A stretch of 64,000 bases of DNA from Flavobacterium sp. I3-2. GTDB lineage: Bacteria > Bacteroidota > Bacteroidia > Flavobacteriales > Flavobacteriaceae. The DNA lies in NCBI RefSeq assembly GCF_013389595.1, contig NZ_CP058306.1:3485934-3549933 (forward strand). The letters are read 5' to 3'. Under the pieces are notes generated by a model. The model had not been told where the DNA came from and made no database searches. It saw nothing but the letters and a program-made list of their open reading frames with translations. The position numbers were made by a program, and so were the translations under genes. Positions 4,709 through 54,192 of the stretch are shown piece by piece (the stretch's first letter is position 1; each line of letters begins with the position of its first letter).

Positions 4709-4781
4709 CTACTGCAAATATCAGCAGCAAAACGTTTTAAACTATTTCGATATTTTTTGTTTGATTTGTAAGATTTACTTC
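4709..4781 (-). promoter_or_regulatory. Two-part promoter/activator element upstream of czcD
   Basis: Box A variant (4763-4781, core AGTAAATCTTACAAA) overlaps the copA stop codon. Box B variant (4709-4727, GATATTTGCAGTA) lies 54 bases downstream on the minus strand. It lets czcD be expressed separately from copA. Confidence 0.5.
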
Positions 4782-7186: not shown

Positions 7187-7204
7187 ATTTCGATTGCTTT
7201 ATTT

Positions 7205-7278
7205 TACAATACAAAATTGACAATAAATAGATAGATATTTATTGTGAAATTATGGGTTTGATTTGTAAGATTTACTTA
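7205..7278 (-). promoter_or_regulatory. copA control region with palindrome 7221-7244
   Basis: Box A variant (7260-7278, core AGTAAATCTTACAAA) overlaps the stop of the AraC-HMA gene. A box-B-like AATTTTG (-7-like) lies about 55 bases downstream. Between them is a perfect palindrome: arms CAATAAATA / TATTTATTG around GATAGA (7221-7244). The palindrome is absent from the other three promoters, so copA may have an extra control layer. Confidence 0.5.
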
Positions 7279-7839
7279 AACCTCGTCTAAAGGCTTACGT
7301 TTGTCTTCTCGAATTTGTTTAAAATGGCTAGGTGTAAGACCTGTTACCTTCTTGAACTGATTACTTAGATAAGCCACACTTGAATAGTTCATGCGATCGG
7401 CAATTTCACTTAATGATAACTCATCATAAACTAAAAGTTCTTTCACTTTTTCTACTTTTTGAGCTATAAAATATTTTTCAATAGTTGTACCCTCAATATC
7501 AGAAAACAAATTAGAAAGATAATTATAATCATTATGTAATGCATCACTTAAAACATCGGAAAGATTTGTTTTTACGTCATTGTCCTGATGATGTACCAAT
7601 TCAATGATAACGTTTTTTATCTTCTCAATCATGCGACTTTTCTTGTCATCAATGACCTGAAAACCTAAGGGATCTAACGCACTTTCTATTGCTTCTCGTT
7701 CTTTTGTAGTCAGATCTTTCACGAGAGAAACTTCTCCCAATTTTATATTACTAGCCTCTAAACCGAGCTTATCGAGTTCGTTCTGAACAACGAGAATACA
7801 GCGGTTGCAGACCATATTTTTTATAAACAATGTCCCCAT
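7276..7839 (-). CDS. AraC-type regulator with N-terminal HMA-like CxxC module
   Basis: 187 aa. Residues 1-60 look like a heavy-metal-associated domain: MGTLFIKNMVCNRC holds C11 and C14 in the MxCxxC position, and the segment has the beta-alpha-beta length of HMA. Residues about 95-175 are the AraC/XylS DNA-binding domain: DELSLSEIADRMNYSSVAYL as first HTH and FKKVTGLTPSHFKQIR as second. This suggests a one-component metal sensor that binds Cu(I) through its own HMA-like module and activates neighbouring genes. It is directly upstream of copA. Box A at four nearby promoters is a plausible binding site. Domain calls are confident; metal identity is inferred. Confidence 0.85.
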   Translation of the reverse strand: MGTLFIKNMVCNRCILVVQNELDKLGLEASNIKLGEVSLVKDLTTKEREAIESALDPLGFQVIDDKKSRMIEKIKNVIIELVHHQDNDVKTNLSDVLSDALHNDYNYLSNLFSDIEGTTIEKYFIAQKVEKVKELLVYDELSLSEIADRMNYSSVAYLSNQFKKVTGLTPSHFKQIREDKRKPLDEV

Positions 7840-8050
7840 ATATCACAAAGTCAGTTTTTAATTTACATAAATACACAAATACAAATTTATGATTAATAAT
7901 TTAGTATTTATCGTTTATGGGTGGTTAAGTGATAAACCGCCGATGAAAAACGATTAAAATCTTTCCCATTGTAGGGACACATTGGTTATTAAATTACTAT
8001 TTATTGGTAAAATTTGTGTGATACCGATATTGATAGTAAAATCTTCCTTT

Positions 8051-8896
8051 ATGAGAAAGTCAATAAACAATATTGTTAGCGAAATTCAGGAACAAGAACG
8101 GAAACTCTCAGTCACGTGCTCGGGACTAATTGAAGAAGCTTTTCAAATGACGGTCTTTCTTCAGGAGCTATTGGTTTCGGCAAAAGAATATGTGTTAAGT
8201 TCGGGATTTGAGAACGAGGCAAAAGAGATTGAATTCTTTAAAATGACTAAGCCCCAAATCCTCGGAAAGCTAATTTACTATAATAAACTGTACCGGATAG
8301 AAACCTCGTGCCCGGTCAATAATGGAAAAATCTACCGCAACTATTTCTCGAAACATTTAACAGAGCTGAAGATTGAGTTCAGGGAACATATCTGCAATTC
8401 CCACTTTTACCGATACTACCGTTCAGGCAGAATAGATAAAGATCAAGAATATTTTAAACGGGGGCAGATAAATTACCTCGAAGGGCTTAATAGTTATGTG
8501 TTTGAAATCGACCCGCTTTTCTCAACCTATTACGATTACAAATTAGCTCGTATTCTCTCCAACGACCTGTTATATGCCTACCTCTTAACCAAAATCAGTC
8601 CCGAAGAAAACTCTGATACATTTTTCAGCAGCACCAGCGAAATTAAAGAGCTATCTTGGACGGACAGCAAGAATGCTTTGATTGAGCTAACGTATGCCCT
8701 ATACGCATCTGGTGCTATTTCGGACGGTAAGTTAGGCATCCGGAAGCTCACTGCTATTTCACAAGTGTTGTTTCGAATACCACTGACCGATGTGCATCAC
8801 GCATTCCACCGGATGAAAACCCGTGCAGGTTCTCGAACCTTGTTTTTAGATCAGTTGAAACAGGCATTGGAAGAATATATGGATAAAGACTTATAA
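8051..8896 (+). CDS. rteC: RteC-domain regulator of the conjugative element
   Basis: 281 aa. RteC family: helical protein with the conserved core LGKLIYYNKLYRIE and YYRSGRIDKDQEYFKRGQ. In CTnDOT, RteC is a DNA-binding protein that activates the excision operon. The ATG at 8051 (MRKSINNI) is chosen over an upstream TTG at 7982. It is the first gene of the ICE core on the plus strand, upstream of HTH and topoisomerase genes. No rteA/rteB two-component pair is seen in this window, so its upstream signal would differ from CTnDOT or lie elsewhere. A terminator follows at 8921-8950. Confidence 0.8.
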   Translation: MRKSINNIVSEIQEQERKLSVTCSGLIEEAFQMTVFLQELLVSAKEYVLSSGFENEAKEIEFFKMTKPQILGKLIYYNKLYRIETSCPVNNGKIYRNYFSKHLTELKIEFREHICNSHFYRYYRSGRIDKDQEYFKRGQINYLEGLNSYVFEIDPLFSTYYDYKLARILSNDLLYAYLLTKISPEENSDTFFSSTSEIKELSWTDSKNALIELTYALYASGAISDGKLGIRKLTAISQVLFRIPLTDVHHAFHRMKTRAGSRTLFLDQLKQALEEYMDKDL

Positions 8897-8920
8897 ACAC
8901 TCCAATCAATAAAGAGTTTG

Positions 8921-8950
8921 AAAGCGATACGCATCCCGTATTGCTTTTTT
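8921..8950 (+). terminator. Terminator after rteC
   Basis: Stem AAGCGATAC / GTATTGCTT (one G-U pair) followed by TTTTTT. Confidence 0.65.
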
Positions 8951-9024
8951 GTGTTTGCATCTGCCCATATATGCCAACTGGCATAAGGGCTTGTTTTACC
9001 ATGGCTCAAATCGGAAAATCTAAC

Positions 9025-9049
9025 GAAAGCCTTATTTAATAAGGCTTTC
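9025..9049. repeat. Perfect palindrome between rteC and HTH gene
   Basis: Eleven-base arms GAAAGCCTTAT / ATAAGGCTTTC around a 3-base loop. No T-run follows, so an operator or excision-related site is as likely as a terminator. The rest of 8951-9158 holds no gene; a TGCCACCTTTCTCAATTT stretch near 9113 echoes the leaders at 9625 and 35443. Confidence 0.45.
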
Positions 9050-9158
9050 CGTCAAATTGTAAAATTTTCAAAAAACCGCTAAACCAATTGGCAAGGCTTG
9101 GCAGACAAACACTGCCACCTTTCTCAATTTTGCATTGTAAACATTAAAGAGCAATGCG

Positions 9159-9287
9159 ATGAAAATTATAACTATTGAAGCAGCAGCAGGGATACAGCTT
9201 AATAACTGGATAAATACTATTGCTGATTATCTACAAAGGCTGAATGATACAAGCTATGATGACTTATGGCAAAAGGCAGAAAGCTGA
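9159..9287 (+). pseudogene. Remnant of an ICE helix-turn-helix gene
   Basis: A 42-codon frame, MKIITIEAAAGIQLNNWINTI...DLWQKAES. Its start resembles the first part of the small HTH proteins that usually occur in pairs in these elements (MxxITIE...), but it stops where the HTH (LDNQDVxxLL...) should begin. It overlaps the region just before the intact HTH gene. Most likely the N-terminal stub of a deleted paralogue; a genuine 42-aa peptide is possible. Confidence 0.4.
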
Positions 9288-9324
9288 AAACAGACAAAAA
9301 AATAAATCCTTAAAAACATGTGCT

Positions 9325-9606
9325 ATGAATATTGATAGAATGGAATTTATATCGTGGATGGAACGCATCATGGACAGATTTGATATGTTGGGCGACAATA
9401 TTAACGATTTAAAAAAGAAACGAAATACCATTGATGGAGAGGAACTACTCGACAATCAGGATATTTTGCAAATGCTGAAAGTCAGTAATCGTTCTCTGCA
9501 ACGTTATCGCTCTATTGGGAAGCTCCCATATTACACGATTAGCGGGAAATTGTATTATAAATTATCAGATGTACATCAGTTTATCAGAGAGAGCTTTAAT
9601 AAATAG
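9325..9606 (+). CDS. Helix-turn-helix DNA-binding protein (MerR/excisionase-like)
   Basis: 93 aa. Helical N-terminus (MNIDRMEFISWMERIMDRF) followed by the winged HTH typical of small Bacteroidota ICE proteins: LLDNQDILQMLKVSNRSLQRYRSIGKLPYYTISGK..., ending KLSDVHQFIRESF. This is the helix_turn_helix_17/excisionase-like fold. The ATG at 9325 is preferred to an upstream frame start at 9244, which adds a low-complexity Lys/Gln stretch. It lies between rteC and the DUF3945-topoisomerase operon, fitting an Xis-like or regulatory role. Function inferred from family and position. Confidence 0.8.
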   Translation: MNIDRMEFISWMERIMDRFDMLGDNINDLKKKRNTIDGEELLDNQDILQMLKVSNRSLQRYRSIGKLPYYTISGKLYYKLSDVHQFIRESFNK

Positions 9607-9624
9607 AACAGAACGCCAATGAAA

Positions 9625-9649
9625 GCCAAACATTTCCATTGACTGCCAC
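9625..9649 (+). promoter_or_regulatory. Conserved ICE leader motif (DUF3945 operon)
   Basis: GCCAAACATTTCC then TTGACTGCCAC. The same two-part sequence precedes traE at 35443-35467, and GCCAAACAATGCC repeats occur upstream of parA. It lies about 60 bases before the DUF3945 start codon. A shared regulatory or RNA-level element is inferred. Confidence 0.4.
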
Positions 9650-9711
9650 TTTAGGCTAAGCAGGAAGCACTTCCTTTACTTTCGGCATAAAAACTTTAAA
9701 ATTTTCAGATT

Positions 9712-11202
9712 ATGAGCGAAGAAACAAAGAAACAGGAAACCTCCGAGCAATCTGTTCAGAACGTACCAGAACAACTGTCGGACATACTGTTAATATTGGA
9801 TAAGGAAAAAATGAAAATCCAAGCCGTAAAGAGCATTGACGAAAACGGCAAAATGGAAACCGTTGACCCTACCAAAAAGAACCAATCTGATTTTATGCGT
9901 GTGGACAAACACGGCGATTTCGTTTCCAATTTCCTATCCAATTTTTGGAGACAGCTAAAAGATCCTACCAATTTCACATTCTTTAAAGTGCAGGCAGGAG
10001 AAGCTGTAGAAAAGGCAAAAAAATTTCAAAAGCAGGTAGATAACCCTACACCGGAGGGTAAAAAAGAAATGGAAAAACACGAGGTGAAAAATGAACCCGA
10101 AAAAGAACAAAAACAAGAAAATAAAAATGATATGGCAACAACACACACAACACCAGAAACAAACGAATACCGTTTCAAGCCGGAACAGATTGATTGGGAA
10201 ACAATGAACAATCTCGGATTAAGCAAGGAATACCTTGAAAAAAAGAACCTCCTTGAACCATTATTGAAAGGTTACAAGACTAATGAGCTTGTACCTATTA
10301 GTATTAATCTTGGCGGTGCAGTAGTACGCACAGATGCCCGTTTATCGTTACAGCCTACACCAGATGGAAGTATCGTGGCGGCAGTACATGGTATCAGACG
10401 TGAACCCAACCTAAACTTTGAGTTCTTTGGACACAAGTTTAACGAAGAAGACAAAAAGAACTTGCTCGATACGGGTAATATGGGGCGTGTGGTAGATTTG
10501 AAAAATCCCAAAACAGAAGAAATGATGCCGTCCATTATCAGTGTGGACAGGCTTACCAATGAGCTGATTGCTTTAAAAACAGAATTTATCAAAATCCCTG
10601 ATGAATTAAAGGGGATAAAACTGAACGATGTGCAAAAGCAAACCTTAATGGAGGGGAAACCTCTGTTTATCGAGGGAATGATTTCTACAAAGGGAACCAC
10701 CTTTGATGCAAATGTTCAGTATAATGCTGACAAAAGATTTGTTGAGTTTTTGTTTGACAGAAACAACAATAACCAGCAATCCCAAAATAAGCAACAAAGT
10801 AATAAGCAAACCAGTCAACAAAAGCAATCGCACGAAGCTCCGAGAACTTTCAGAGGTAAGGAACTGACTGATGAGCAGTACAACAAATTCAAAGACGGAC
10901 AAACCGTATATATTGAGTTGAAAGACAAAAAGGACCAGCCCTACCAGGGTTACATCACTTTCAATAAACAAGATGGAAAAACCAATTTTGAGTTCCCAAA
11001 TCAATATAAGGAACGTGTAAAACCTACCGAAGCTCACAAAACACAAACTGCGGTTAATTCTGAAGGAAAAACCAACGAAGCAACCAAAAATGTGAAAGAA
11101 CCTTTGCAAAAAGAACAGCAAAAACCGAAGAATGAAAAGCAACAGGAGCAACAGGAAAAACCGAAAGCTCCAGCAAAATCAAAAGGTAAAAAAGTGAGTT
11201 AA
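9712..11202 (+). CDS. DUF4099/DUF3945 domain protein
   Basis: 496 aa, soluble, rich in Lys/Gln/Glu. Residues about 17-75 resemble the N-terminal region of these ICE proteins. About 155-215 (FKPEQIDWETMNNLGLSKEYLEK...) is the DUF4099 region, and the two repeats around 220-350 and 375-430 (ELTDEQYNKFKDGQTVYIE) are DUF3945-type. The C-terminal 70 residues are low-complexity Gln/Lys/Pro. It ends 2 bases before topB, a pairing conserved in Bacteroidota ICEs, so it probably acts with the topoisomerase in DNA processing. No biochemical function is known to me. Confidence 0.8.
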   Translation: MSEETKKQETSEQSVQNVPEQLSDILLILDKEKMKIQAVKSIDENGKMETVDPTKKNQSDFMRVDKHGDFVSNFLSNFWRQLKDPTNFTFFKVQAGEAVEKAKKFQKQVDNPTPEGKKEMEKHEVKNEPEKEQKQENKNDMATTHTTPETNEYRFKPEQIDWETMNNLGLSKEYLEKKNLLEPLLKGYKTNELVPISINLGGAVVRTDARLSLQPTPDGSIVAAVHGIRREPNLNFEFFGHKFNEEDKKNLLDTGNMGRVVDLKNPKTEEMMPSIISVDRLTNELIALKTEFIKIPDELKGIKLNDVQKQTLMEGKPLFIEGMISTKGTTFDANVQYNADKRFVEFLFDRNNNNQQSQNKQQSNKQTSQQKQSHEAPRTFRGKELTDEQYNKFKDGQTVYIELKDKKDQPYQGYITFNKQDGKTNFEFPNQYKERVKPTEAHKTQTAVNSEGKTNEATKNVKEPLQKEQQKPKNEKQQEQQEKPKAPAKSKGKKVS

Positions 11203-11204
11203 TT

Positions 11205-13289
11205 ATGAAAACAGTTATCGCAGAAAAACCAAGCGTAGCAAGAGAAATAGCCAGCCTGTTGGGAGCATCTGATAAAAAAGACGGCTACTTAACGGGTAAT
11301 GGCTATTTTATTACGTGGGCATTCGGTCATTTAATTGGCTTAGGAATGCCCGAAGATTACGGGATTTCGGGGTTTGATAAGACTTCATTGCCTATCCTCC
11401 CGAACCCGTTCATATTGACCGTTAGAAAGGTCAAAAAAGACAAGGGCTACCAAGCCGATACGGGAGCATTAAAGCAACTGAAAATCATCAAAGAATTGTT
11501 CAACAAAAGCGACAGCATTATCGTTGCTACCGATGCAGGACGTGAGGGCGAGTTGATTTTTAGGTATATTTACGAGCATCTAAAATGCTGTAAACCCTTT
11601 GAGCGACTTTGGATTAGTTCACTTACCGAAAAGGCAATCAAGCAAGGCTTTGATAGCTTGAAAGACGGCAAAGAATTTGACGGATTGTATCAGGCTGCGC
11701 AAGGCAGAAGCCGGGCCGATTGGTTGGTGGGCATCAATGCTACACAAGCATTGAGTATTTCGGCAGGCAATGGTATTTATTCGTTAGGTAGGGTGCAAAC
11801 GCCTACATTGGCTCTTATTTGTAAACGCTATTTGGAAAACAAAAATTTCTCTATTAAGAAGTATAGGCAAATTCAGCTATCACACAACAAAGAAAATGTT
11901 GATTTCAAAAGCCTTTCCAAAACCAAATGGGAAAACCAAAAACTTGCCGATGATACATTGAAAGCCATTCAGCGAAGCGATACGGCAACAATTACATCGG
12001 TAGAAACCAAAAGCGTTACAGAGCAACCGCCTTTGTTGTTTGACCTTACAGGACTGCAAAAGGAAGCTAATAAAAAGCTCAACCTTTCTGCCGAAGAAAC
12101 CCTGAATATTGCCCAAAGCCTTTACGAAAAGAAGTTTATCACTTACCCACGCACCGGAAGTAAATATATCCCTGAAGATATGTGGGCTGAAATTCCCAAC
12201 CTTGTAAGAGCATTGCAGAATAATGAGCAATTTAAACAAGCGGTATCAAAAGTAAAATGGGGTCGGTTTAATAAGCGTATCGTAAACGATTTACGTGTGA
12301 CAGACCACCACGGTTTACTTATTACCGACAAAATTCCGTCTGCTCTCAAAACGGACGAAACGAAAGTTTATAATATGATTGCCTTTCGACTGCTCGAAGC
12401 CATATCACAACCTTGTATCAAAGAAGTAACAGATATAGCGTTGCAAGTATCGCATTACGATTTTACGTTGAAAGGCTGTAAAGTTTTGGAAGCAGGTTGG
12501 CGTTTGATAAAGGGAACTTTCTCGGACGAAGACACTGAACCAATTCAGGACTTACCCGATTTAAAAAAAGGTGACGAACTGAACATTAAGGAAGCCATTT
12601 GTTTAGAAAAGAAAACCAAACCGCCTGTGCTTTATACAGAAGCCGGGCTATTGTCGGCAATGGAAAATGCAGGAAAGGAAATTGAAAACGAGGACGAACG
12701 GAAAGCCCTGCAAAATATCGGTATTGGCACGCCTGCTACAAGGGCAGCGATAATCGAAACGCTGTTTACCCGCAACTATATCCAACGAGAAAAGAAATCC
12801 CTGATACCCACTGAAAAAGGATTGCAGGTATATGAACTAGTAAAAGACCGCAAAATTGCAGATGTGGCAATGACCGCTGAATGGGAACTTGCCTTGCAGA
12901 AAATAGAAAACAATGAAGCTGATGTCGGAGCATTTCAAACAGAAATGGAAAAATATGCAATATCTATTACCGATGAACTATTGCAAACTTCCATTGCTCA
13001 AAACAACCTGCCTAAACTGAATTGCCCGAAATGTAAAAGCCAGCAACTCATCATCCGGGATAAAATTGTAAAGTGTCCTGATGAAGTTTGTAATTGGATA
13101 CAGTTCCGTAATGTGTGTGGCGTACAAATCAGGATAGCCGATATTGAAAGTCTTATCAATAAAGGTAAAACTTCACTTATTAAAGGAATGAAAAGCAAGG
13201 CAGGAAAGAAGTTCGATGCCTTTATCATATTGGATGAAGAATACAAAACCTCTTTTGAATTTGAAAAAAACAAAAGTTACAAAAAGTAA
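11205..13289 (+). CDS. topB: Type IA DNA topoisomerase (topoisomerase III-like)
   Basis: 694 aa. Toprim domain starts MKTVIAEKPSVAREIA (catalytic Glu), with DAGREGELIFRYIYEH as the second Toprim motif. The active-site Tyr lies in FITYPRTGSKYI (Y314) and the type IA signature GIGTPATRAAIIE at about 505. A C-terminal zinc-ribbon-like CPKC...CPDEVC is near 606-630. It cuts and rejoins one DNA strand through a 5'-phosphotyrosine and should resolve intermediates during ICE transfer or replication. Start follows the DUF3945 stop by two bases; its TAA overlaps the start of the broken ORF6N gene (TAATG). Confidence 0.95.
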   Translation: MKTVIAEKPSVAREIASLLGASDKKDGYLTGNGYFITWAFGHLIGLGMPEDYGISGFDKTSLPILPNPFILTVRKVKKDKGYQADTGALKQLKIIKELFNKSDSIIVATDAGREGELIFRYIYEHLKCCKPFERLWISSLTEKAIKQGFDSLKDGKEFDGLYQAAQGRSRADWLVGINATQALSISAGNGIYSLGRVQTPTLALICKRYLENKNFSIKKYRQIQLSHNKENVDFKSLSKTKWENQKLADDTLKAIQRSDTATITSVETKSVTEQPPLLFDLTGLQKEANKKLNLSAEETLNIAQSLYEKKFITYPRTGSKYIPEDMWAEIPNLVRALQNNEQFKQAVSKVKWGRFNKRIVNDLRVTDHHGLLITDKIPSALKTDETKVYNMIAFRLLEAISQPCIKEVTDIALQVSHYDFTLKGCKVLEAGWRLIKGTFSDEDTEPIQDLPDLKKGDELNIKEAICLEKKTKPPVLYTEAGLLSAMENAGKEIENEDERKALQNIGIGTPATRAAIIETLFTRNYIQREKKSLIPTEKGLQVYELVKDRKIADVAMTAEWELALQKIENNEADVGAFQTEMEKYAISITDELLQTSIAQNNLPKLNCPKCKSQQLIIRDKIVKCPDEVCNWIQFRNVCGVQIRIADIESLINKGKTSLIKGMKSKAGKKFDAFIILDEEYKTSFEFEKNKSYKK

Positions 13290-14171
13290 TGGAAAACAAA
13301 CCTACCATTAGCACAATGGAAATCAAGAGCCTGATTTATTCCTTACGTGGAAAGCAAGTAATGCTAGATAGCGACCTCGCTTCCTTACACCAAGTGGAAA
13401 CAAAGAACCTCAACAAAGCGGTAAAAAGAAATATGAAAGGTTTCCTATTTCATTTTGCTTTCAATTGACAGATGAAGAATTTGAAAACTTGAGGTTCCAA
13501 TTTGGAACCTCAAGTTTAAACTATGGTGGAAGACGTTATCTACCTTATGCTTTTACCGAACAAGGTATTGCAATGGCATCTGCTATACTTCGTTCACATA
13601 TTGCTATTAAAGTGAGCGTTGAAATTATGGAAGCTTTCGTAGAAATGAGAAGAATGCTAATCAGTAACGCCTCTTTATTTCATCGTTTGGATAAGATTGA
13701 ATTGAAGCAATTACAAGCCGATCAAAAATTTGAGAAAATCTTTAAGGCTTTGGAAAACGACAAGCTCCACAGCGAAAAAGGTATCTTTACAACGGACAGG
13801 TTTTTGATGCCGATGCTTTTGTTTCTGATATTATCCGTAGTGCTGGAAATTCCATTATCCTGCTTGATAATTATGTGGATGATACGGTGCTGACCTTATT
13901 GAGTAAGCGCAATACAAATGTAGCCTCCACCATACATACCAAATCTATCAGCAATCAATTACGGCTGGATTTACAACGGTACAACATCCAATATCCTCCC
14001 ATTATTGAGATTGAGATTTTCTCCGATGCTCACGACCGATTTTTGATTATTGACGATACGGAACTTTACCATATCGGGGCATCACTCAAAGACCTGGGCA
14101 AAAAATGGTTTGCCTTTTCACGAATGGATATTGAAGTTTGCAGGATGCTTCAAATATTGAATAAACAATAA
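13289..14171 (+). pseudogene. ORF6N-domain gene broken by two single-base losses
   Basis: Frame 1 from 13289 gives MENKPTISTMEIKSLIYSLRG..., the ORF6N (KilA-N-like) DNA-binding domain, and then stops. The homologous text continues one frame back at about 13437 (RFPISFCFQLTDEEFENLRFQ) and again one frame back near 13790 (after KGIF), running DNYVDDTVLTLLSKR...ELYHIGASLKDLGKKWFAF to 14171. Restoring one T near 13436 and one T in the TTT run near 13786 would give a full-length protein of about 294 aa. The family consists of phage/ICE-associated regulators. Real decay is more likely than error because there are two independent lesions, but sequencing error is not excluded. Confidence 0.75.
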
Positions 14172-39080: not shown

Positions 39081-40955
39081 ATGGCGAAGGGAGACAGTCA
39101 ATTTAGTTTAATACGATTAACGGAAAATGTGAGAGACATTATGAGAAATCCAGAAAAAGTATTGAACAGTCTAATAAGGCACAGCGGAAGCACGGACTAT
39201 AAGTTCGAAAGGCTGTACAAGGTTCTGTTCAATGAAGAGATGTACTTTATCGCCTATCAGAAAATCTACAGTAAAGTAGGCAATATGACGGCAGGAGTTG
39301 ATGGAAAGACCATCGACGGAATGAGTATATCCCGCATTGAAAGGTTGATTGCATCGTTGCGAAACGAGACCTATCAGCCAAACCCATCCAAGAGGACATA
39401 CATTCCGAAAAAGAACGGGAAGAAACGTCCGCTTGGTATACCATCTTTTGATGACAAATTAGTGCAGGAGGTTATCAGAATGATATTGGAAGCAATTTAT
39501 GAGGGTAGCTTTGAGCATACTTCACATGGGTTCCGACCCAATAGAAGCTGTCACACAGCCCTATTAAGCGTCCAACAGTCATTCACTGCTGTACGGTGGT
39601 TCATCGAGGGCGATATAAAAGGCTTCTTCGACAATATCAATCACGAAATATTGATTGGTATCCTAAAGGAGCGTATCGCTGACGACAGGTTCATTCGGTT
39701 GATACGAAAGTTCCTCAATGCAGGGTATATTGAAGATTGGGTGTACCACAAAACATACAGTGGCACACCGCAAGGTGGGATTGTAAGCCCCATCCTTGCC
39801 AACATTTATCTTGATAAACTCGATAAATATGTCAAGGATTATATCAAGGACTTCGATAAGGGTAAAAGAACTACGGCTACACGCCAGTACAGGCTACACG
39901 AACAGAGACGATACCGCTTGGCCAAGAAACTCAAATGTGAGACAGACGAAACTGTCAGAGAGCAGATGATTAAGTACATCAAAGAGTTGAGACAGGAAAG
40001 AAACAAATATCCAGCCTATGACAAGATGGATGGCAGTTTCAGAAAGTTAAAATACGTTAGGTATGCGGACGATTTTCTTATCGGGGTCATAGGTAGCAAA
40101 GAAGACTGCAAAAAGATAAAGGAAGACATCAAGGTTTACCTTGATGAAAAACTGAAACTTGAACTGTCTGATGAAAAAACCTTGGTGACTAATGCTAAGA
40201 AACCAGCCAAATTCTTAGGCTTTGATGTCTCCGTGCGAAACTCCGATGAATCCAAGAGAGATAAGCACGGTAGATCCGTAAGATGTTTCGGAGATAAGAT
40301 TGTACTCCGTGTCACAGCAGACGTGATGAAGAAAAAGCTACTGAGATATAATGCCATGAAACTGGTAAATGAAAAAGGCACAGAAGTTTGGAAACCACGC
40401 TCACGCTATTACATGAAAGACTTGGATGACTTAGAAATCATCAGTCAGTACAACGCTGAAATACGGGGCTTTTACAATTATTACTCAATTGCCAACAACA
40501 GCTCGTTTGTCCAGTCATTATCTTACATCTTGGAGTACAGTATGTACAAAACGTATGCACTTAAATACCAAACTTCAATCAGTCAGGAAAAGACTAAAAG
40601 ATGTATCAACGGAGTGTTTTCCATTCCCTACAAAAACAGGAAAGGAGATATAATGTACAGACGCTTTTACAAAGAGGGTTTCAAACGCCAAAAAGCTGCC
40701 CGTGGTGCTTACGTGGATAGTTTACCTGTCACAGTTACCATTACAGGAGGAAGAAACAGCCTTGTAGCAAGGTTGCAAAACCAGAAATGCGAATTATGCG
40801 GTGCCAACGAGAAATTGGAAATGCACCATATACGCAAATTGAAAGACCTGAAAGGTAAGCAAGACTGGGAAAAACGAATGAGTGCAAGGAGAAGAAAAAC
40901 CTTGGCAGTATGCTCAAAATTCCACGATAAGATACACGCAGGCAAGTTAGACTGA
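39081..40955 (+). CDS. ltrA: Group II intron reverse transcriptase/maturase
   Basis: 624 aa. Reverse transcriptase palm with GTPQGGIVSPILANIYLD and the catalytic YADD in LKYVRYADDFLIGVIG. Maturase (X) domain near 440-510 (RGFYNYYSIANN). C-terminal HNH endonuclease CELCGANEKLEMHHIRKLKDL...CSKFHDKIHAGKL. All three activities needed for splicing and retrohoming look intact, so the intron may be active. Start ATG at 39081 lies within domain IV of the intron. Confidence 0.95.
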   Translation: MAKGDSQFSLIRLTENVRDIMRNPEKVLNSLIRHSGSTDYKFERLYKVLFNEEMYFIAYQKIYSKVGNMTAGVDGKTIDGMSISRIERLIASLRNETYQPNPSKRTYIPKKNGKKRPLGIPSFDDKLVQEVIRMILEAIYEGSFEHTSHGFRPNRSCHTALLSVQQSFTAVRWFIEGDIKGFFDNINHEILIGILKERIADDRFIRLIRKFLNAGYIEDWVYHKTYSGTPQGGIVSPILANIYLDKLDKYVKDYIKDFDKGKRTTATRQYRLHEQRRYRLAKKLKCETDETVREQMIKYIKELRQERNKYPAYDKMDGSFRKLKYVRYADDFLIGVIGSKEDCKKIKEDIKVYLDEKLKLELSDEKTLVTNAKKPAKFLGFDVSVRNSDESKRDKHGRSVRCFGDKIVLRVTADVMKKKLLRYNAMKLVNEKGTEVWKPRSRYYMKDLDDLEIISQYNAEIRGFYNYYSIANNSSFVQSLSYILEYSMYKTYALKYQTSISQEKTKRCINGVFSIPYKNRKGDIMYRRFYKEGFKRQKAARGAYVDSLPVTVTITGGRNSLVARLQNQKCELCGANEKLEMHHIRKLKDLKGKQDWEKRMSARRRKTLAVCSKFHDKIHAGKLD

Positions 40956-47755: not shown

Positions 47756-47820
47756 TCGGTAAGTGTAGTTGCCTGCGCTTCTTTTTTGTGCAGGGCTACG
47801 TCATCTTAAAAAAGTATGAT

Positions 47821-48222
47821 ATGCAAACCGTTACAGCTCAACAAAAATTTACCCTAGCCTTTATCAATGATAAGAGCCCAATTTTAGATCTTATTTGCAA
47901 CGATCTCATTGCTTCAGGAATTGAGGTTATGTTCAGGACTGAAACCGTCGAAAATTGTTTACATAAATTATCAGAATTAAACACTCTTCCCCAAGTATGT
48001 GTTATCGATTTGAATTTTCATCGTCAGGATATAATAGCAATAATTAAAAAATTGAGAACACATTATCCAACAATAAAACTAATTGCTCACAGTGATATTG
48101 ATGATGATAAAGTAGGCAAGGCTCTTTTAAATATTGGTTTTTCAAACTATCTAATTCTTGGTAGTGACATAGATGATTTTAAAAGAGCCATTGACAAGAC
48201 TGCCAATGGCTATCATTTTTAA
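47821..48222 (+). CDS. Stand-alone, degenerate response-regulator receiver
   Basis: 133 aa from the ATG at 47821. Receiver fold: FTLAFINDKSPILDLICNDLI at the start, phospho-acceptor Asp in VCVIDLNF, then LIAHSDIDDDKVGKALLNIGFSNYLILGSD. The N-terminal acidic pair is reduced to ND, and the conserved Lys of the last loop (usually YLLK) is missing (YLIL). It has no output domain, unlike the LuxR-type relatives. It may have become a protein-interaction module. Convergent with the SMC gene, 11 bases apart. Confidence 0.7.
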   Translation: MQTVTAQQKFTLAFINDKSPILDLICNDLIASGIEVMFRTETVENCLHKLSELNTLPQVCVIDLNFHRQDIIAIIKKLRTHYPTIKLIAHSDIDDDKVGKALLNIGFSNYLILGSDIDDFKRAIDKTANGYHF

Positions 48223-48233
48223 TATATAAAGCA

Positions 48234-51200
48234 CTAACGCTCTAGCTGAAATTCTCTAAATTCATTCTGGCCTAGAAATTCGAATTTCTTTCTAAATAAA
48301 TTTGAAAACTTCTTGTTGGCGGTTGCAAAGAATATTTGTTTTTTTTCCTTGACAATAAAATATCTTAAAAAATCCAAGAAAGATAATGCATTGAAATCGT
48401 CAATAAAAGTTACTGGATCGTCAAAGATTAAAATATTTGGTCCATTCTGTAGTTTTCTATTTAAACTTATAAAAATTGACAATACTAATGCAGCTCTTTG
48501 ACCTGTACTAATTTGTGAAATTTCAAATGCCTTATCTTCTTTAAATAAAATCAATTTATTGTCTTTATATTGCAACGTTGAAAACTCTTGAGGTGAATGT
48601 ATCGTTTTAAAGATATCCTTTATTTCATTAAGATTGTTTTTAAAAAAATCCTCCAAAATTATGTCTTCACTATTGTTGTTTAGCTTTTCTAACAGTTCAA
48701 CTGCAATATTCAACCTCCTGCTAAGTTCCTTAATTTGAGGTAGTGATTTCTCTATATCTTCATTAACAATTAAAAGTTTTTTAATTTCATTCTGGCTGTT
48801 TTCTATAATTCTTAATGTGTTCAAATTCTCATTCAAGAGAGCTAAATCTTTTGAGATCTCTACAATATTTCTATCCTCGGGAATCTGAATGTAGCGGTTT
48901 AAATTTTCAAAACTAAAATTTAGAGATTCGATTTTAGTATTATTAGAATTAACTATTTCTTCTATTTTATCGAATCTATCGGTGTATTCTTTTAACTTCA
49001 GCGAGCTGTTTAGTTCACTAATAATTTTATTATTTGTGAACTTTAAATTTTCTATGTCAGTTGTGTATGTTGCTAATTGATTCTTTAGCTCAACAATGAT
49101 CTTTCTTAATATTTGTTCATTGCAAATATCTTGATTTGGAAACTTCGATAATAGTTCAGATTTTAATTTTGAATATTCAGATATTGACCCACTAATTGTT
49201 CCTAATCGAAAAAATAATCTATCATAGGATTCCTTTTCAATCAAGATCTCTTTCTCTTTATTTATCGTATCCTGGATATTTTTATCTATTTGATCCAAAC
49301 TTATAACTTCATTCGTACTTAAATAATTTGATACAACAACATCATAATGTTTTAAGTCACTTAATTCTTTTTCTAAAAATGCAACTTCTAAAGCTAAGGT
49401 GTCAATTAACACATTCTTATCATTGATGGCTTTTTTTACAGTATCATTTCTAAATTCAGATTCAAGTTTTTGTAAAAGGTTAGAATGTGAAATTTGTTGC
49501 TCACAAAGTGGACAGCTATTGGAATGAGAATTCTGATTCAATATCTTTTTCCCTAATTGTTTGAGCTCATTGATTAATTTCTCATTTTGAGACAAATTCT
49601 CTTGTAATACATGAACATCATTTTTCAAATCTTTAAGAGAACTTGCTTTAGTACTTAATATCAACTCTTTCGACGAAATAGCTTCAGGCAAGGTTTTGTA
49701 ATCTTCTGCTAATTTTAGAATATCTAATTGTAAATTATTTAAGTCGATAAGCTTTTTTATAATTGAAAGCTGAGTATCATTTTTTTTACTGTTGATTTCT
49801 AATAACTCAATTCTAAAATTATCTTCAATTTCAGAGTATTTCAAAAAGTTATTCGCTTTGCTAAGAACGTCATCTATTTGCAGTCTATTTTGAATGCTTT
49901 TATTTGAATTTTGAATATTTTCATAGTAAGATTCTTTTGCCTCAGCAACTAGCTTATTTCGTGTCAAAATGTTCTCTTTGACGCTTAGGAATTTTTTGTA
50001 ATTTGTTAGCCACTTGTTTGGTAAAATAAAATCTATTTCATTTTTTATTTCGTTAATAAATAAATTAGTCACAGAAAATTTAGACTCTTCAATAGATGTT
50101 CTGTAATTTAGATTGCTAATATTAAACTTGATATTATCTTTTACCTCCTCGAAGCTGTTATTGCTCCTTAATTCATTTATTCGATCAGAATTTTTTTTAA
50201 ACTCCTCGTTCTTTTCTTTAATAGATCTTGATGTCTTATTTAATTCAGGTTTTAATCTAGTTTGAATTTTTTGAATTTTATCTTTTAAAGTTGTGTATTC
50301 CTCTCCCAATATTATTTGCTTTAGAGAATCATTTATCACATCTCTTTCTTCTGAATTTGAAAATTGATGTGCCGCATCAGTATTAAAAAAATTAAATTGA
50401 TTAAAAGATTTAAAAGTTTGGTTTCCTTGTTCAGAAATTCTTCTGTTATACCATTTAGATCCTCTCTCTTTATATAATCTATTATTGTGTGTATAAGTCT
50501 CATTTAAATTTTCATTCAAAATAGCCGATATAGAGTTTGAGTCCTCAGTTTTATCTTGATTTCTCTGTGTTCTTCCAGTAAGAATTAATTCTATCGATTC
50601 TAATAGACTTGTTTTGCCGACACCATTCGAACCTGTAAATAAGTTTACAGAACCAAAATTAAAGTCTCTTAGCTTTGGATATGGTCTGTAAGTATCTTTT
50701 AAACTTATAGAACTTATATTTTCAATAACAGGAACATCATCTAAGTTTTTATCTTTCTTTTCTACAATATTGGGTATAGTATTGTTAAGAAAATTTCTAA
50801 CGATACCATCATAAGATGCTTGACTATATATTTCTTGTAAACCGACTTTATTTAGTTCGTCCTTCCATGTAGCAACAATATCAGGCAATTCTGATTTTTC
50901 AGATTTCTCTAACTCAAAATAATCCAGAAATTCTTTATCACTAAATATTAATTTTCGGGCATATTTGTCATCTTTAAGAATTCTTATTTTTAAACTATCT
51001 GAAATATTGCTATTGATAAATAATAAATAAATATTCCATTGAAGTGCTTCATCTTGATTGTAAAACTCTTCTGCTAAATATTTATACTGTAGCTGATCAA
51101 ATTCTTCTTCAGAAATTTCTTGATTGAAATTCAAGTAATATATTCCTGCTATTTTATCATCAATTGATAAATTCCCTTTATATAAGTTACTATCTACTTC

Positions 51201-51257
51201 AGAAAACCCATTAAAAAGTTTTCTAGATTGATCTAAAAGTTGTTGAGTATTCATCAT
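48234..51257 (-). CDS. Rad50/SMC-like ATPase with zinc hook
   Basis: 1007 aa. An N-terminal helical extension of about 190 residues is not part of the ATPase. Walker A FTGSNGVGKTSLLESI near 208-223; long coiled coils with a central hook CPLC near 580; signature motif ISTGQRAALVLSIFI near 910; Walker B/D-loop NILIFDDPVTFIDDF near 937-951. This is Rad50/SMC architecture, but the extension sets it apart from housekeeping SbcC. It follows the nitrilase-like gene by 5 bases on the same strand, so they form a two-gene module between ICE core genes. SMC-type ATPases in such positions are often anti-phage or anti-plasmid sensors; that role is inferred. Confidence 0.82.
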   Translation of the reverse strand: MMNTQQLLDQSRKLFNGFSEVDSNLYKGNLSIDDKIAGIYYLNFNQEISEEEFDQLQYKYLAEEFYNQDEALQWNIYLLFINSNISDSLKIRILKDDKYARKLIFSDKEFLDYFELEKSEKSELPDIVATWKDELNKVGLQEIYSQASYDGIVRNFLNNTIPNIVEKKDKNLDDVPVIENISSISLKDTYRPYPKLRDFNFGSVNLFTGSNGVGKTSLLESIELILTGRTQRNQDKTEDSNSISAILNENLNETYTHNNRLYKERGSKWYNRRISEQGNQTFKSFNQFNFFNTDAAHQFSNSEERDVINDSLKQIILGEEYTTLKDKIQKIQTRLKPELNKTSRSIKEKNEEFKKNSDRINELRSNNSFEEVKDNIKFNISNLNYRTSIEESKFSVTNLFINEIKNEIDFILPNKWLTNYKKFLSVKENILTRNKLVAEAKESYYENIQNSNKSIQNRLQIDDVLSKANNFLKYSEIEDNFRIELLEINSKKNDTQLSIIKKLIDLNNLQLDILKLAEDYKTLPEAISSKELILSTKASSLKDLKNDVHVLQENLSQNEKLINELKQLGKKILNQNSHSNSCPLCEQQISHSNLLQKLESEFRNDTVKKAINDKNVLIDTLALEVAFLEKELSDLKHYDVVVSNYLSTNEVISLDQIDKNIQDTINKEKEILIEKESYDRLFFRLGTISGSISEYSKLKSELLSKFPNQDICNEQILRKIIVELKNQLATYTTDIENLKFTNNKIISELNSSLKLKEYTDRFDKIEEIVNSNNTKIESLNFSFENLNRYIQIPEDRNIVEISKDLALLNENLNTLRIIENSQNEIKKLLIVNEDIEKSLPQIKELSRRLNIAVELLEKLNNNSEDIILEDFFKNNLNEIKDIFKTIHSPQEFSTLQYKDNKLILFKEDKAFEISQISTGQRAALVLSIFISLNRKLQNGPNILIFDDPVTFIDDFNALSFLDFLRYFIVKEKKQIFFATANKKFSNLFRKKFEFLGQNEFREFQLER

Positions 51258-51262
51258 AAATT

Positions 51263-53011
51263 TTATGAAATAGAATTATTACTGTTTGGCGTTTCCGTAA
51301 TACTTCCTGCTTCAGGATTTGACTTATTTAAAATTGTATTACCTTGTTTATAAAAAACGACGATTGTATACTTGCCAGGAGACTCTTCATCGAATAAGTT
51401 TTGTAATGCATCATAAACTTTATTTACTTCGCGAGGACTAACGGCACTTCCAACATAACAAACGGTGGCCTTTTCAATAGTTCTGTTATCACTTACCAAA
51501 TTGTATTTATAATTAAAAACTTGAGCGTTATCTGCATAAGCTAGGGAAATATTTTTATTTTCTAAATGCTTTATACTGTGAGGGTAATGTGATGCAGTAG
51601 GAATTATATTTTGATCTAATTCAAAGATATTAGAGCAATTTATCATTCTTACTTGTTCACTTGACGGATATCGATCTTCTATATAAGTAAGCCTATTATT
51701 ACATTCGTCAGATTCATTTAAAATAAAGCTATTTAAATGAATTACATCTGACCAATTGTCTTTCACTTTGCTTTTCACTTTACCTGTAGATATATTTATC
51801 AATCTCTCTTTATCTATTATCGACGTATCTGTATTAAGCAAAAAAGAATTTTGAATTCCTCTCTCTATTAGAAAATTAATATGATTGTCTTCAATTTGAT
51901 TTATTTCTGATAAGTTCAAGTCTTCGTTAAAAATAAATATATTACCGATAGTTGGTCCTTCTCTACGTTGTTGTACATCTTGTCCGTCATCTATACTAAC
52001 AGGTTTATTGTAAATTTTAAAAAGTTCAACATTTCCGTTTAAAAAATAAACTCTTTTAGTTCGAAGAATTTGCAAAAAGTATAACCCTTTTTTGTGATTT
52101 TCTTCAATATTGACTGTCCTGAAATCTAAATCATCATCAGTTGTTCTGAAATAAATTGCACTTCTAGGTGTATTCGTTTCATTATACAAATTATTACCAT
52201 TTATAAAAGTTGTTTCAATACCCCAATTTAAAGTAATTAATTCTCTTTTCTCCTTCTCTAAAACAAATTTTTTAAAGGCTATAAAATCAATATGAGATGG
52301 ATTTGGATTATACTGTAAATTTAGCACCAAAAATGGCGAATCCGTCCAGCTATGATGATTTATTAATTGTTCTTTATAAGATGCATCAAAATTTATTGCC
52401 TGTGAACATATAAAGGACATCAAGCGGATTGAATTATGATTATTTTTAATGATATATACATTTTCTCCTTCAATAAGATTTTCTGCTTCTAACTGACTAG
52501 AACGCAAACCTCCCATATGTCGACTTTTGAACTGGATTAGAATAATCAGTTTCTCAACACCTTCATGGATACCTCTAAAAATGTAATACAAAGGATCTAC
52601 ATAATTTTTATCTGAATTTGTATAACAATCTTCAAAATATATGTAATGATTATCATTATTTAATCCCTTCAAAGCGGTTAATTCTACCTTACTTAAAGAT
52701 TCACCTCCTAAAACCCATATTTTCCCTTGAGGAGGATATATATTCCCATTTAAAATTACCTCTTCTATCACTCTTTTGGGACAGGAGTACTCTGGTGACA
52801 AAACTAAAGCGGTATTATCATCTTTAGCCCTAATTAATACATTTGTAAATTTGGTTATTGCTTCTTCTTGGTTATTATTTCCAATACGTGTATTGTCAGC
52901 AAAAAACACACCTTTATGCTGATAAAGAAAAAGACTATTACGTTGAGTGTCACGTTTCAATACATCTAATTCAACCTCGACATTTAAGGTTGATATATCT
53001 ACTAAATTCAT
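51263..53011 (-). CDS. Nitrilase-like (CN-hydrolase fold) protein partnered with SMC ATPase
   Basis: 582 aa, no signal peptide. Residues about 60-215 carry a possible Glu-Lys-Cys triad: E74 in LVLSPEYSCP, K162 in LIQFKSRHMGG, C202 in MSFICSQAIN. An extra Glu follows K162 in LEAENLIEGENVYII, as in the K-x-H...E...G pattern of nitrilases. Strand GKIWVLGGE matches the core sheet. The C-terminal 350 residues are unrecognised. Nitrilases cleave C-N bonds in small molecules; here a nucleotide- or amide-targeting effector controlled by the adjacent SMC ATPase is conceivable. I know no described system with this pair. Fold call by eye, so moderate. Confidence 0.55.
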   Translation of the reverse strand: MNLVDISTLNVEVELDVLKRDTQRNSLFLYQHKGVFFADNTRIGNNNQEEAITKFTNVLIRAKDDNTALVLSPEYSCPKRVIEEVILNGNIYPPQGKIWVLGGESLSKVELTALKGLNNDNHYIYFEDCYTNSDKNYVDPLYYIFRGIHEGVEKLIILIQFKSRHMGGLRSSQLEAENLIEGENVYIIKNNHNSIRLMSFICSQAINFDASYKEQLINHHSWTDSPFLVLNLQYNPNPSHIDFIAFKKFVLEKEKRELITLNWGIETTFINGNNLYNETNTPRSAIYFRTTDDDLDFRTVNIEENHKKGLYFLQILRTKRVYFLNGNVELFKIYNKPVSIDDGQDVQQRREGPTIGNIFIFNEDLNLSEINQIEDNHINFLIERGIQNSFLLNTDTSIIDKERLINISTGKVKSKVKDNWSDVIHLNSFILNESDECNNRLTYIEDRYPSSEQVRMINCSNIFELDQNIIPTASHYPHSIKHLENKNISLAYADNAQVFNYKYNLVSDNRTIEKATVCYVGSAVSPREVNKVYDALQNLFDEESPGKYTIVVFYKQGNTILNKSNPEAGSITETPNSNNSIS

Positions 53012-53041
53012 TAAAAGCGTAATTAAGCTGATTAAAATTCA

Positions 53042-53059
53042 ATAACTTAAATAAGTTAT
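53042..53059. promoter_or_regulatory. Palindromic operator upstream of nitrilase-SMC module
   Basis: Perfect ATAACTTA-AA-TAAGTTAT, 31 bases before the start codon of the first module gene. Related half-sites (TTAAGTTC, CAAGTTAT) follow within 35 bases upstream. Likely a repressor site; no regulator gene is encoded in the module itself. Confidence 0.45.
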
Positions 53060-53162
53060 GAATAAATTATTTAAGTTCACAAGTTATCAAATTTATAATA
53101 AATAAACTTATCGATAGATAGACATAAATGAAAATGTTTAATAATAGTGCGACGTTCTTTTG

Positions 53163-53200
53163 CTTCTTTTCTTTGGTCGCAGATGTGGAAAGAAAAGAAG
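53163..53200. repeat. Extragenic palindrome CTTCTTTTCTTT / AAAGAAAAGAAG
   Basis: Perfect 12-base arms around a 14-base loop. Pyrimidine-rich palindromes of this type recur between genes in Bacteroidota. The interval 53060-53382 otherwise holds no credible gene. Confidence 0.5.
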
Positions 53201-53382: not shown

Positions 53383-54192
53383 CTATCGGGCGACTGCAAT
53401 AGGTTGTGAACGAAAATCTTTCAAATTGAGAAAAAAGCCTCTGTATTCTATCAATCCGTGGCGAAATAGACCCCATAACAAAGAACTACCCATTTGAGCC
53501 AATGACGAATTGATATACAAATCCTGTTTTTCCAATGCTTCAGCTATACTACAACTTGGTGTGTCGTCTTCCTGTTCGGACTGCTTCAGCAAATCACCAA
53601 ATTCATCTGTGATCATTGGAAGATTAGATACTATTTCGTATCTGTCGGAATTAGGTTGTTTTATCTCTCCAATGGTTGATAATAATACCTGTCCTGTATA
53701 TTGGCTGTTTCCATAATCCAACCAATACTTTGGTTTATGGTGGTAATACTTTCCGTTATCCAATGCTTTAAATATTTCGGCAATACTAAATCTTGCTTTT
53801 ACACTATCTACACAGGTAATAAAGATTGTAGCCAGTACGTTTTCGGGAACTTTTCCGAAACTGTCCTTTTCAAACCTCTGCGTTTCAGCTTTCCAGTTTG
53901 TACCTGTAAAGCGGTTGGCTCGATTGATGAGAGCAACGGATTTATATAGCCCGACCTCACACTCTGCAAAACGCTGTCTACCCAAATTAGCTTCTGTAAT
54001 AACATCATCATCCCAAAGGCGAACAGACAATCCTGCGTGTCCTAACGCAATTAAACTGTGGTTCATTTCCATTAAGGCGGTCAAAACCTTTGAGCCTGTG
54101 CCACCTGCACCGATAAGGTTTACCGATATGGGATTGGTAGCGTTAATTAAGCTATTGTCCGTAAAATGGACTTTTATTTTTTCGGTATTCAT
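53383..54192 (-). CDS. PRTRC system ThiF-family protein
   Basis: 269 aa. E1/ThiF-like Rossmann fold: SVNLIGAGGTGSKVLTALMEMN (nucleotide loop GxGGTG), then VRLWDDDVITEANLGRQRFA with the conserved Asp and Arg, and IFITCVDSVKARFSIAEIF. PRTRC clusters (ParB-related, ThiF-related cassettes) occur on plasmids and ICEs; the ThiF protein probably adenylates a partner or a small modifier. The expected catalytic Cys is not evident. Last gene of the minus-strand PRTRC operon; its start overlaps the protein B stop by 4 bases. Confidence 0.88.
   Translation of the reverse strand: MNTEKIKVHFTDNSLINATNPISVNLIGAGGTGSKVLTALMEMNHSLIALGHAGLSVRLWDDDVITEANLGRQRFAECEVGLYKSVALINRANRFTGTNWKAETQRFEKDSFGKVPENVLATIFITCVDSVKARFSIAEIFKALDNGKYYHHKPKYWLDYGNSQYTGQVLLSTIGEIKQPNSDRYEIVSNLPMITDEFGDLLKQSEQEDDTPSCSIAEALEKQDLYINSSLAQMGSSLLWGLFRHGLIEYRGFFLNLKDFRSQPIAVAR

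Follow-up and report, generated by a model that had tools for sequence, protein, structure and literature searches.

In the 64,000-nucleotide stretch of Flavobacterium sp. I3-2 DNA analysed here (NZ_CP058306.1, positions 3,485,934-3,549,933, forward strand; hereafter the window, whose own positions are used as coordinates), two genes on the minus strand form a compact module. The first (51263-53011), called the effector gene below, encodes a protein of 582 amino acids (aa) with a divergent nitrilase (carbon-nitrogen hydrolase, CN-hydrolase) domain at about residues 19-351 and a C-terminal domain at residues 352-582. The second (48234-51257), the sensor gene, encodes a 1007-aa ABC ATPase resembling Rad50 and structural maintenance of chromosomes (SMC) proteins, which has a zinc hook, CPLC, and a middle component fused at its N-terminus. 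This fused part, residues 1 to about 176 (50730-51257, minus strand), is MComp1-like and would be the equivalent of LmuC. Both open reading frames (ORFs) lie where an original prediction, made from the letters of the DNA, had placed them, 5 bases apart.

The predicted structure of the effector has the alpha-beta-beta-alpha fold of nitrilases. The original prediction had called the protein nitrilase-like on account of a possible Glu-Lys-Cys set, and E74, K162 and C202 are indeed correctly numbered and invariant in 81/81, 99/99 and 103/103 aligned relatives. A fourth invariant residue of catalytic type, E175, had been overlooked; E74, K162, E175 and C202 are all unchanged in the 103 of 103 effector proteins aligned, members of a family diverged down to 26% identity. 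It is to be noted that the 81 relatives were taken from 103 effector proteins found, near-duplicates and short ones being omitted, and that the 103-row alignment consists of these 81 plus the effectors of 18 loci and of L098, L106, L107 and L111; the effectors of L002-L006, L016 and L026 are not separate rows there, and some of the added loci may duplicate proteins of the alignment. When the effector is aligned over its full length (-mact 0) with the PF00795 domain, the four residues fall on columns occupied by E in 30/30, K in 30/30, E in 28/30 and C in 30/30, respectively, and the profile-profile match is weak when taken alone (pair E 9e-04, probability 22%; the default alignment spans the E74 region only). 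Fold and catalytic residues together thus back the reading of a nitrilase-like effector.

Could the protein have kept a nitrilase fold and yet not be a hydrolase, serving instead as a ligand-binding module or an oligomerisation scaffold in a system that works by DNA binding or looping alone? The family stands far from enzymatic nitrilases, since PF00795 matched none of the effectors scanned and structure alignments with CN-hydrolases gave 8-14% identity. However, the invariance of four catalytic-type residues through such a drift in sequence makes this unlikely in our opinion. A sequence search of PDB with the effector gave no match, and the only matches of its profile there, two Fel d 4 chains (E 0.031), were taken as chance. 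The C-terminal part (352-582) is conserved and may be the docking part of the protein; this part and residues 1-176 of the ATPase were barely covered by the lists from predicted-structure comparison.

The motifs that had been read in the ATPase also hold in its relatives. In all 100 rows of an alignment drawn from the 120 ATPases listed, from which near-duplicates and short ones were omitted, the Walker A residues G209, N211, G212, G214 and K215, the zinc-hook cysteines C582 and C585 (CPLC), the signature residues S917, G919 and Q920, and D953-D954 are invariant, and Walker B is D946-D947. The ATPase matches the PADLOC model of LmuB (E 3e-20), and its Foldseek list includes chains of solved Lamassu LmuACB structures (9hqx_B, 9hqu_A and 9uxh_F). 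It is thus an SMC/Rad50-type ABC ATPase, as is expected of an ABC-three-component (ABC-3C) system, and the earlier reading of an SMC-like sensor is backed to this extent.

As for the N-terminal extension, described before as unusual and 190 residues long, it is real, the Rad50-like part beginning at about residue 177, but it loses its unusualness if explained as a fused middle component. MComp1 exceeds the Pfam cut-off in two relatives of the ATPase (P0193 and P0197), PF20289 (MComp1) is precomputed on a 69% identical relative (P0225), and in Methanosarcina sp. KYL-1 (locus L018) the middle component is a separate gene (E 2.5e-37). By way of these relatives and of the split in L018, the middle component of ABC-3C appears to be present in the window ATPase as a fused domain. 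The MComp1 score of L020 is 26.4 bits, just below the cut-off of 27.3, L017 has no MComp1 match, and a profile search of PDB with the N-terminal unit found no match. A protein search with the same unit gave 13 proteins, of which four were inspected: P0235 and P0236 extend beyond the unit, and P0225 sits on a contig of 1220 bases, and therefore these three were not counted as stand-alone middle components; P0234, of 219 aa, is uncertain as such, so that L018 is the only clear split among those examined. In L018 the ATPase (4827-9890) and the separate middle component (11703-13385) are rearranged; the ATPase makes up the C-terminal region of a protein of 1687 aa, in which a P-loop-like start and repeats like tetratricopeptide repeats (TPRs) can be seen by eye, and the middle component bears its own TPR array according to Pfam. 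It is possible that this TPR arrangement is an extra sensing layer.

Do the two genes belong together? A pattern scan of a species-genome collection gave 25 loci on the effector side, and in 23 of them the ATPase lies on the same strand directly 3' of the effector, a count which includes L005, where the ATPase is interrupted, and L016, where the effector is; such interruptions might be expected of costly genes in decay. Of the remaining two, L018 is rearranged with the genes adjacent, and L026 ends inside the effector at a contig end. From the ATPase side, 2/395 genomes of the window's own phylum (E <= 1e-30) and 4/249, 2/196 and 0/299 genomes in samples of other phyla (E <= 1e-20) gave a total of eight, three of them newly found (G624, G648 and G1035), and the effector is adjacent in 8/8. 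These counts are lower bounds, as the searches score few candidates per genome; the 0/299 sample comes from the phylum to which the betaproteobacterial bin L026 belongs, and among 199 close relatives the only genome with the ATPase is that of the window itself. A survey in which the genes seldom met would have spoken against a module, and the two sides agree that they travel together. The distance matrices of effectors and ATPases are correlated as well (25 pairs, L005, L016, L018 and L026 being omitted; r = 0.941, reached by 0/2000 permutations), a figure whose weight for our interpretation is lessened because it could partly stem from shared ancestry of the host lineages. Thus, the protein with the predicted nitrilase fold and the full E-K-E-C set forms a tight pair with a Rad50-like ATPase bearing an N-terminal unit related to middle components.

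The pair is rare and patchy; names and titles place it in Bacteroidota, Firmicutes (Desulfosporosinus and Syntrophomonas), Leptospira, Acinetobacter and one archaeon. A DNA search of plasmid records gave no match to the pair, nor did a protein search of phage records with the effector. Both genes are present on one viral contig of IMG/VR (L098:7995-12807, 584 and 1021 aa), so prophages may be a further vehicle of the unit. The folds alone, Rad50-like and nitrilase, would suit a housekeeping or DNA repair ATPase accompanied by a metabolic nitrilase. A distribution so thin within the own phylum, yet stretching over several phyla up to an archaeon, hardly fits such a duty, and neither does the base composition: the two genes have 27.8% G+C versus 41.2% in the tra flank and 40.7% in the PRTRC flank described below, that is, about 28% within an element of 41%. 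We regard this explanation as very improbable.

The position of the module between core genes of an integrative and conjugative element (ICE), as had been proposed, is borne out: on one side is a CTnDOT-type tra operon (TraG, TraJ, TraM and TraQ by Pfam), and on the other a PRTRC set (ThiF, protein B and protein E). Because the module is flanked by these two, the element is taken to be an ICE of Bacteroidota. One flank of the slot is the PRTRC ThiF-family gene (53383-54192, minus strand; TIGR03736, E 2.2e-72), a core gene of the ICE outside the module, and the other is a response-regulator-like gene (47788-48222, plus strand), whose PF00072 match (E 4.1e-06, 27.4 bits) does not reach the cut-off of 30.2. 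Among 24 other ThiF places in relatives, 19 were fetched for comparison, and 12 of them show the arrangement of the window, with ThiF facing traQ. Homology of DNA to the window ends at 53124-53165 in 12/12 such ICEs and at 48188-48194 in 6/6 ICEs keeping the response-regulator-like gene, a gene whose syntenic homologue adjoins the slot in six of these 12. Between these borders the genes differ from ICE to ICE, none shows homology to either gene of the pair at E <= 1e-4, and the only recurring ones are a gene of 182-184 aa, in four ICEs, and a short gene of 73-116 aa adjoining ThiF. The pair behaves as one cargo unit of the ICE, on a segment (48195-53140, no strand assigned, borders approximate) whose position is taken up by different cargo in related ICEs. 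L079 has the ThiF closest to that of the window (86%) among the ICEs compared, and its slot carries GajA (E 2.3e-294) and GajB (E 3.1e-102), that is, Gabija; 10 cargo proteins were scanned, and of the seven from this slot only GajA and GajB matched.

Several other observations were made on these elements. In L081, L083, L084 and L090 the slot is filled solely by the conserved gene of 182-184 aa (72-86% identical), perhaps a near-empty state of the slot. A related ICE has a second variable place, bounded by the response-regulator-like gene and the homologue of an 87-aa ORF, and it is occupied there by a ZacA/ZacB-like pair (L087:4643-8895; E 1.2e-06 and 8.3e-14). In the window itself, a group II intron-type reverse transcriptase/maturase (39081-40955) has its place in the tra operon, separating traG from the tra gene that comes next, and a heavy-metal P-type ATPase is encoded at 4775-7186. 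The palindrome that had been read as an operator just upstream of the module does exist (53042-53059, 8-base-pair arms), but among 500 first-order Markov shuffles of the stretch 40 do as well and it is absent from the 150 bases upstream in 9/9 relatives inspected, three of which have other palindromes there (that of L013 with 9-base-pair arms); the operator reading was thus given up.

What could such a cargo do for its carrier? One answer is that the pair serves the ICE itself, through stability, exclusion of rival elements or addiction, and not phage defence. Its neighbours in the window are tra genes on one side and PRTRC genes on the other, 5/25 relatives (L008, L013, L014, L015 and L022) have homologues of the window's tra or mobilisation genes in the flanks fetched, and in L008, from Dyadobacter, the pair again adjoins the end of a tra run. 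On the other hand, related ICEs carry different cargo in this variable slot, Gabija among it; in 20 of the 25 loci the flanks fetched, some of them short, contain no such tra or mobilisation homologue; and the pair also settles in restriction and BREX (bacteriophage exclusion) neighbourhoods. In Flavobacterium gillisiae (L002) it is inside a type I restriction locus, with HsdM and a specificity subunit upstream and HsdR downstream past one gene; in F. flabelliforme (L003) it is directly before HsdR; and in a Neomarinimicrobiota bin (L019) it is downstream of PglX, a PglZ-domain protein and BrxL. We therefore find a role confined to maintenance of the element quite unlikely, and the defence context expected earlier is supported, also by the Gabija in the same slot of the closest ICE compared. 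Not all loci look like defence loci, since in L005, for one, a TonB-receptor-type protein is encoded downstream. Directly upstream of the pair in L013, L014, L015 and L020 is a four-gene operon (about 440, 215, 1083 and 318 aa); a MukB N-terminal domain is found in its 1051-aa protein in L020, the 1083-aa counterpart in L013 has no Pfam match, and a PADLOC scan of eight proteins from L013 and L020 gave one match to JetD (E 4.8e-05), slight signs that the operon may be a divergent Wadjet.

Taken together, the pair is probably a two-gene immune system of the ABC-3C type, similar to the Lamassu superfamily, carried as cargo of an ICE. By homology to Lamassu, the ATPase would be the sensor and the nitrilase the weapon. 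An ATPase dimer linked by the zinc hook might sense foreign or abnormal DNA ends or structures, and in the resting complex the middle component and the C-terminal domain of the effector would keep the nitrilase inactive. Binding of DNA and ATP might then release or oligomerise the nitrilase; DNA-bound ATPase is supposed to free and assemble it because fused effectors of Lamassu are reported to be activated by oligomerisation upon sensing (PMC12799240) and nitrilases require oligomers for activity (PMC13275509). The freed nitrilase would hydrolyse an essential small molecule bearing an amide, glutamine or an amide related to nicotinamide adenine dinucleotide being candidates, so that the infected cell would be stopped before the phage or plasmid spreads, and on an ICE the unit would also guard the element against its competitors.

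Several points weigh against this interpretation. The window effector matches no family of Pfam, NCBIfam or PADLOC at E <= 1, the PADLOC LmuA model (PDLC03850) is touched by 9/81 of its relatives with a best E of 9.8e-04, 9 of 10 more distant effectors scanned in PADLOC gave no match, the tenth (L025) touching the RT-nitrilase model at E 0.011, and the C-terminal domain (352-582) was matched to no LmuA. The window ATPase itself has no MComp1 match, and its Walker B, D-D in 100/100 rows, is without the Glu-to-Gln change described for LmuB. In the tally of 123 neighbouring proteins, which was made without a control set and to which 104 farther genes listed do not belong, the 25 commonest of 300 PADLOC families, all models of type I restriction and AbiE, each match only two or three. 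Lastly, amide or nitrile hydrolysis and its substrate, the trigger and protection from phages or plasmids are all predictions. It is to be noted that annotation tools resting on the three libraries probably miss the window effector because those libraries do not name it.

Nitrilase chemistry is rare in immunity. The original prediction had thought it novel for systems of this sort, and this part is not supported, since a C-N hydrolase is included among the enzyme types that vary in the N-terminal domain of LmuA, whose C-terminal part is a possible docking station (PMC10586767), and DRT1, a class 3 defence-associated reverse transcriptase, has a nitrilase domain as well. DRT1 is reported to be an anti-phage protein acting in abortive infection, and its paper speaks of a lack of precedent and leaves the substrate open (PMC13275509). 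A second candidate consisting of only two genes with an intact tetrad makes the question of what immune nitrilases attack directly testable, and the fused middle component offers a naturally minimal version of the Lamassu-type sensor. It might even be possible, although we would hold this only tentatively, that the pair represents a distinct two-component immune class, in which a Rad50-like clamp for aberrant DNA with a built-in regulator directly switches on a nitrilase destroying an essential amide metabolite; nitrilase-driven abortive infection would then have been reached independently, by DRT1 via DNA synthesis and here via DNA sensing.

How does the pair relate to known systems? DRT1 shares with it a nitrilase domain but joins this to a reverse transcriptase and has no SMC ATPase, while no reverse transcriptase family matched the effector or ATPase of the window. 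Members of the CN-hydrolase superfamily (PF00795) share the fold and the E-K-E-C positions, although PF00795 does not recognise the window effector, which has a long additional C-terminal domain. Rad50/SbcC is alike in head fold, zinc hook and motifs; the window ATPase differs in its N-terminal middle component and in having a nitrilase as operon partner, and general library scans matched no Mre11-type nuclease family among the window neighbours scanned. The closest likeness is to ABC-3C/Lamassu (LmuA-LmuC-LmuB), with an effector bearing an N-terminal enzyme domain, a zinc-hook SMC/Rad50-like ATPase and a middle component in one operon. There are, however, usually three genes, not two with the middle component fused to the ATPase; LmuB is about 650 aa, not 1007, and its Walker B Glu-to-Gln change is called general (PMC10586767), whereas Walker B is D-D here, which counts against an LmuB proper as well; and the window effector is not recognised as LmuA (0 PADLOC matches). 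ABC-3C/Lamassu with a C-N hydrolase is a kind already published, as an entry in a list, and this exact form was not found in the open-licence literature. The pair differs from that kind in having only two genes, a middle component fused to the ATPase, D-D in Walker B and an effector missed by the libraries, and because of these same features we place the pair under ABC-3C and not under Lamassu proper.

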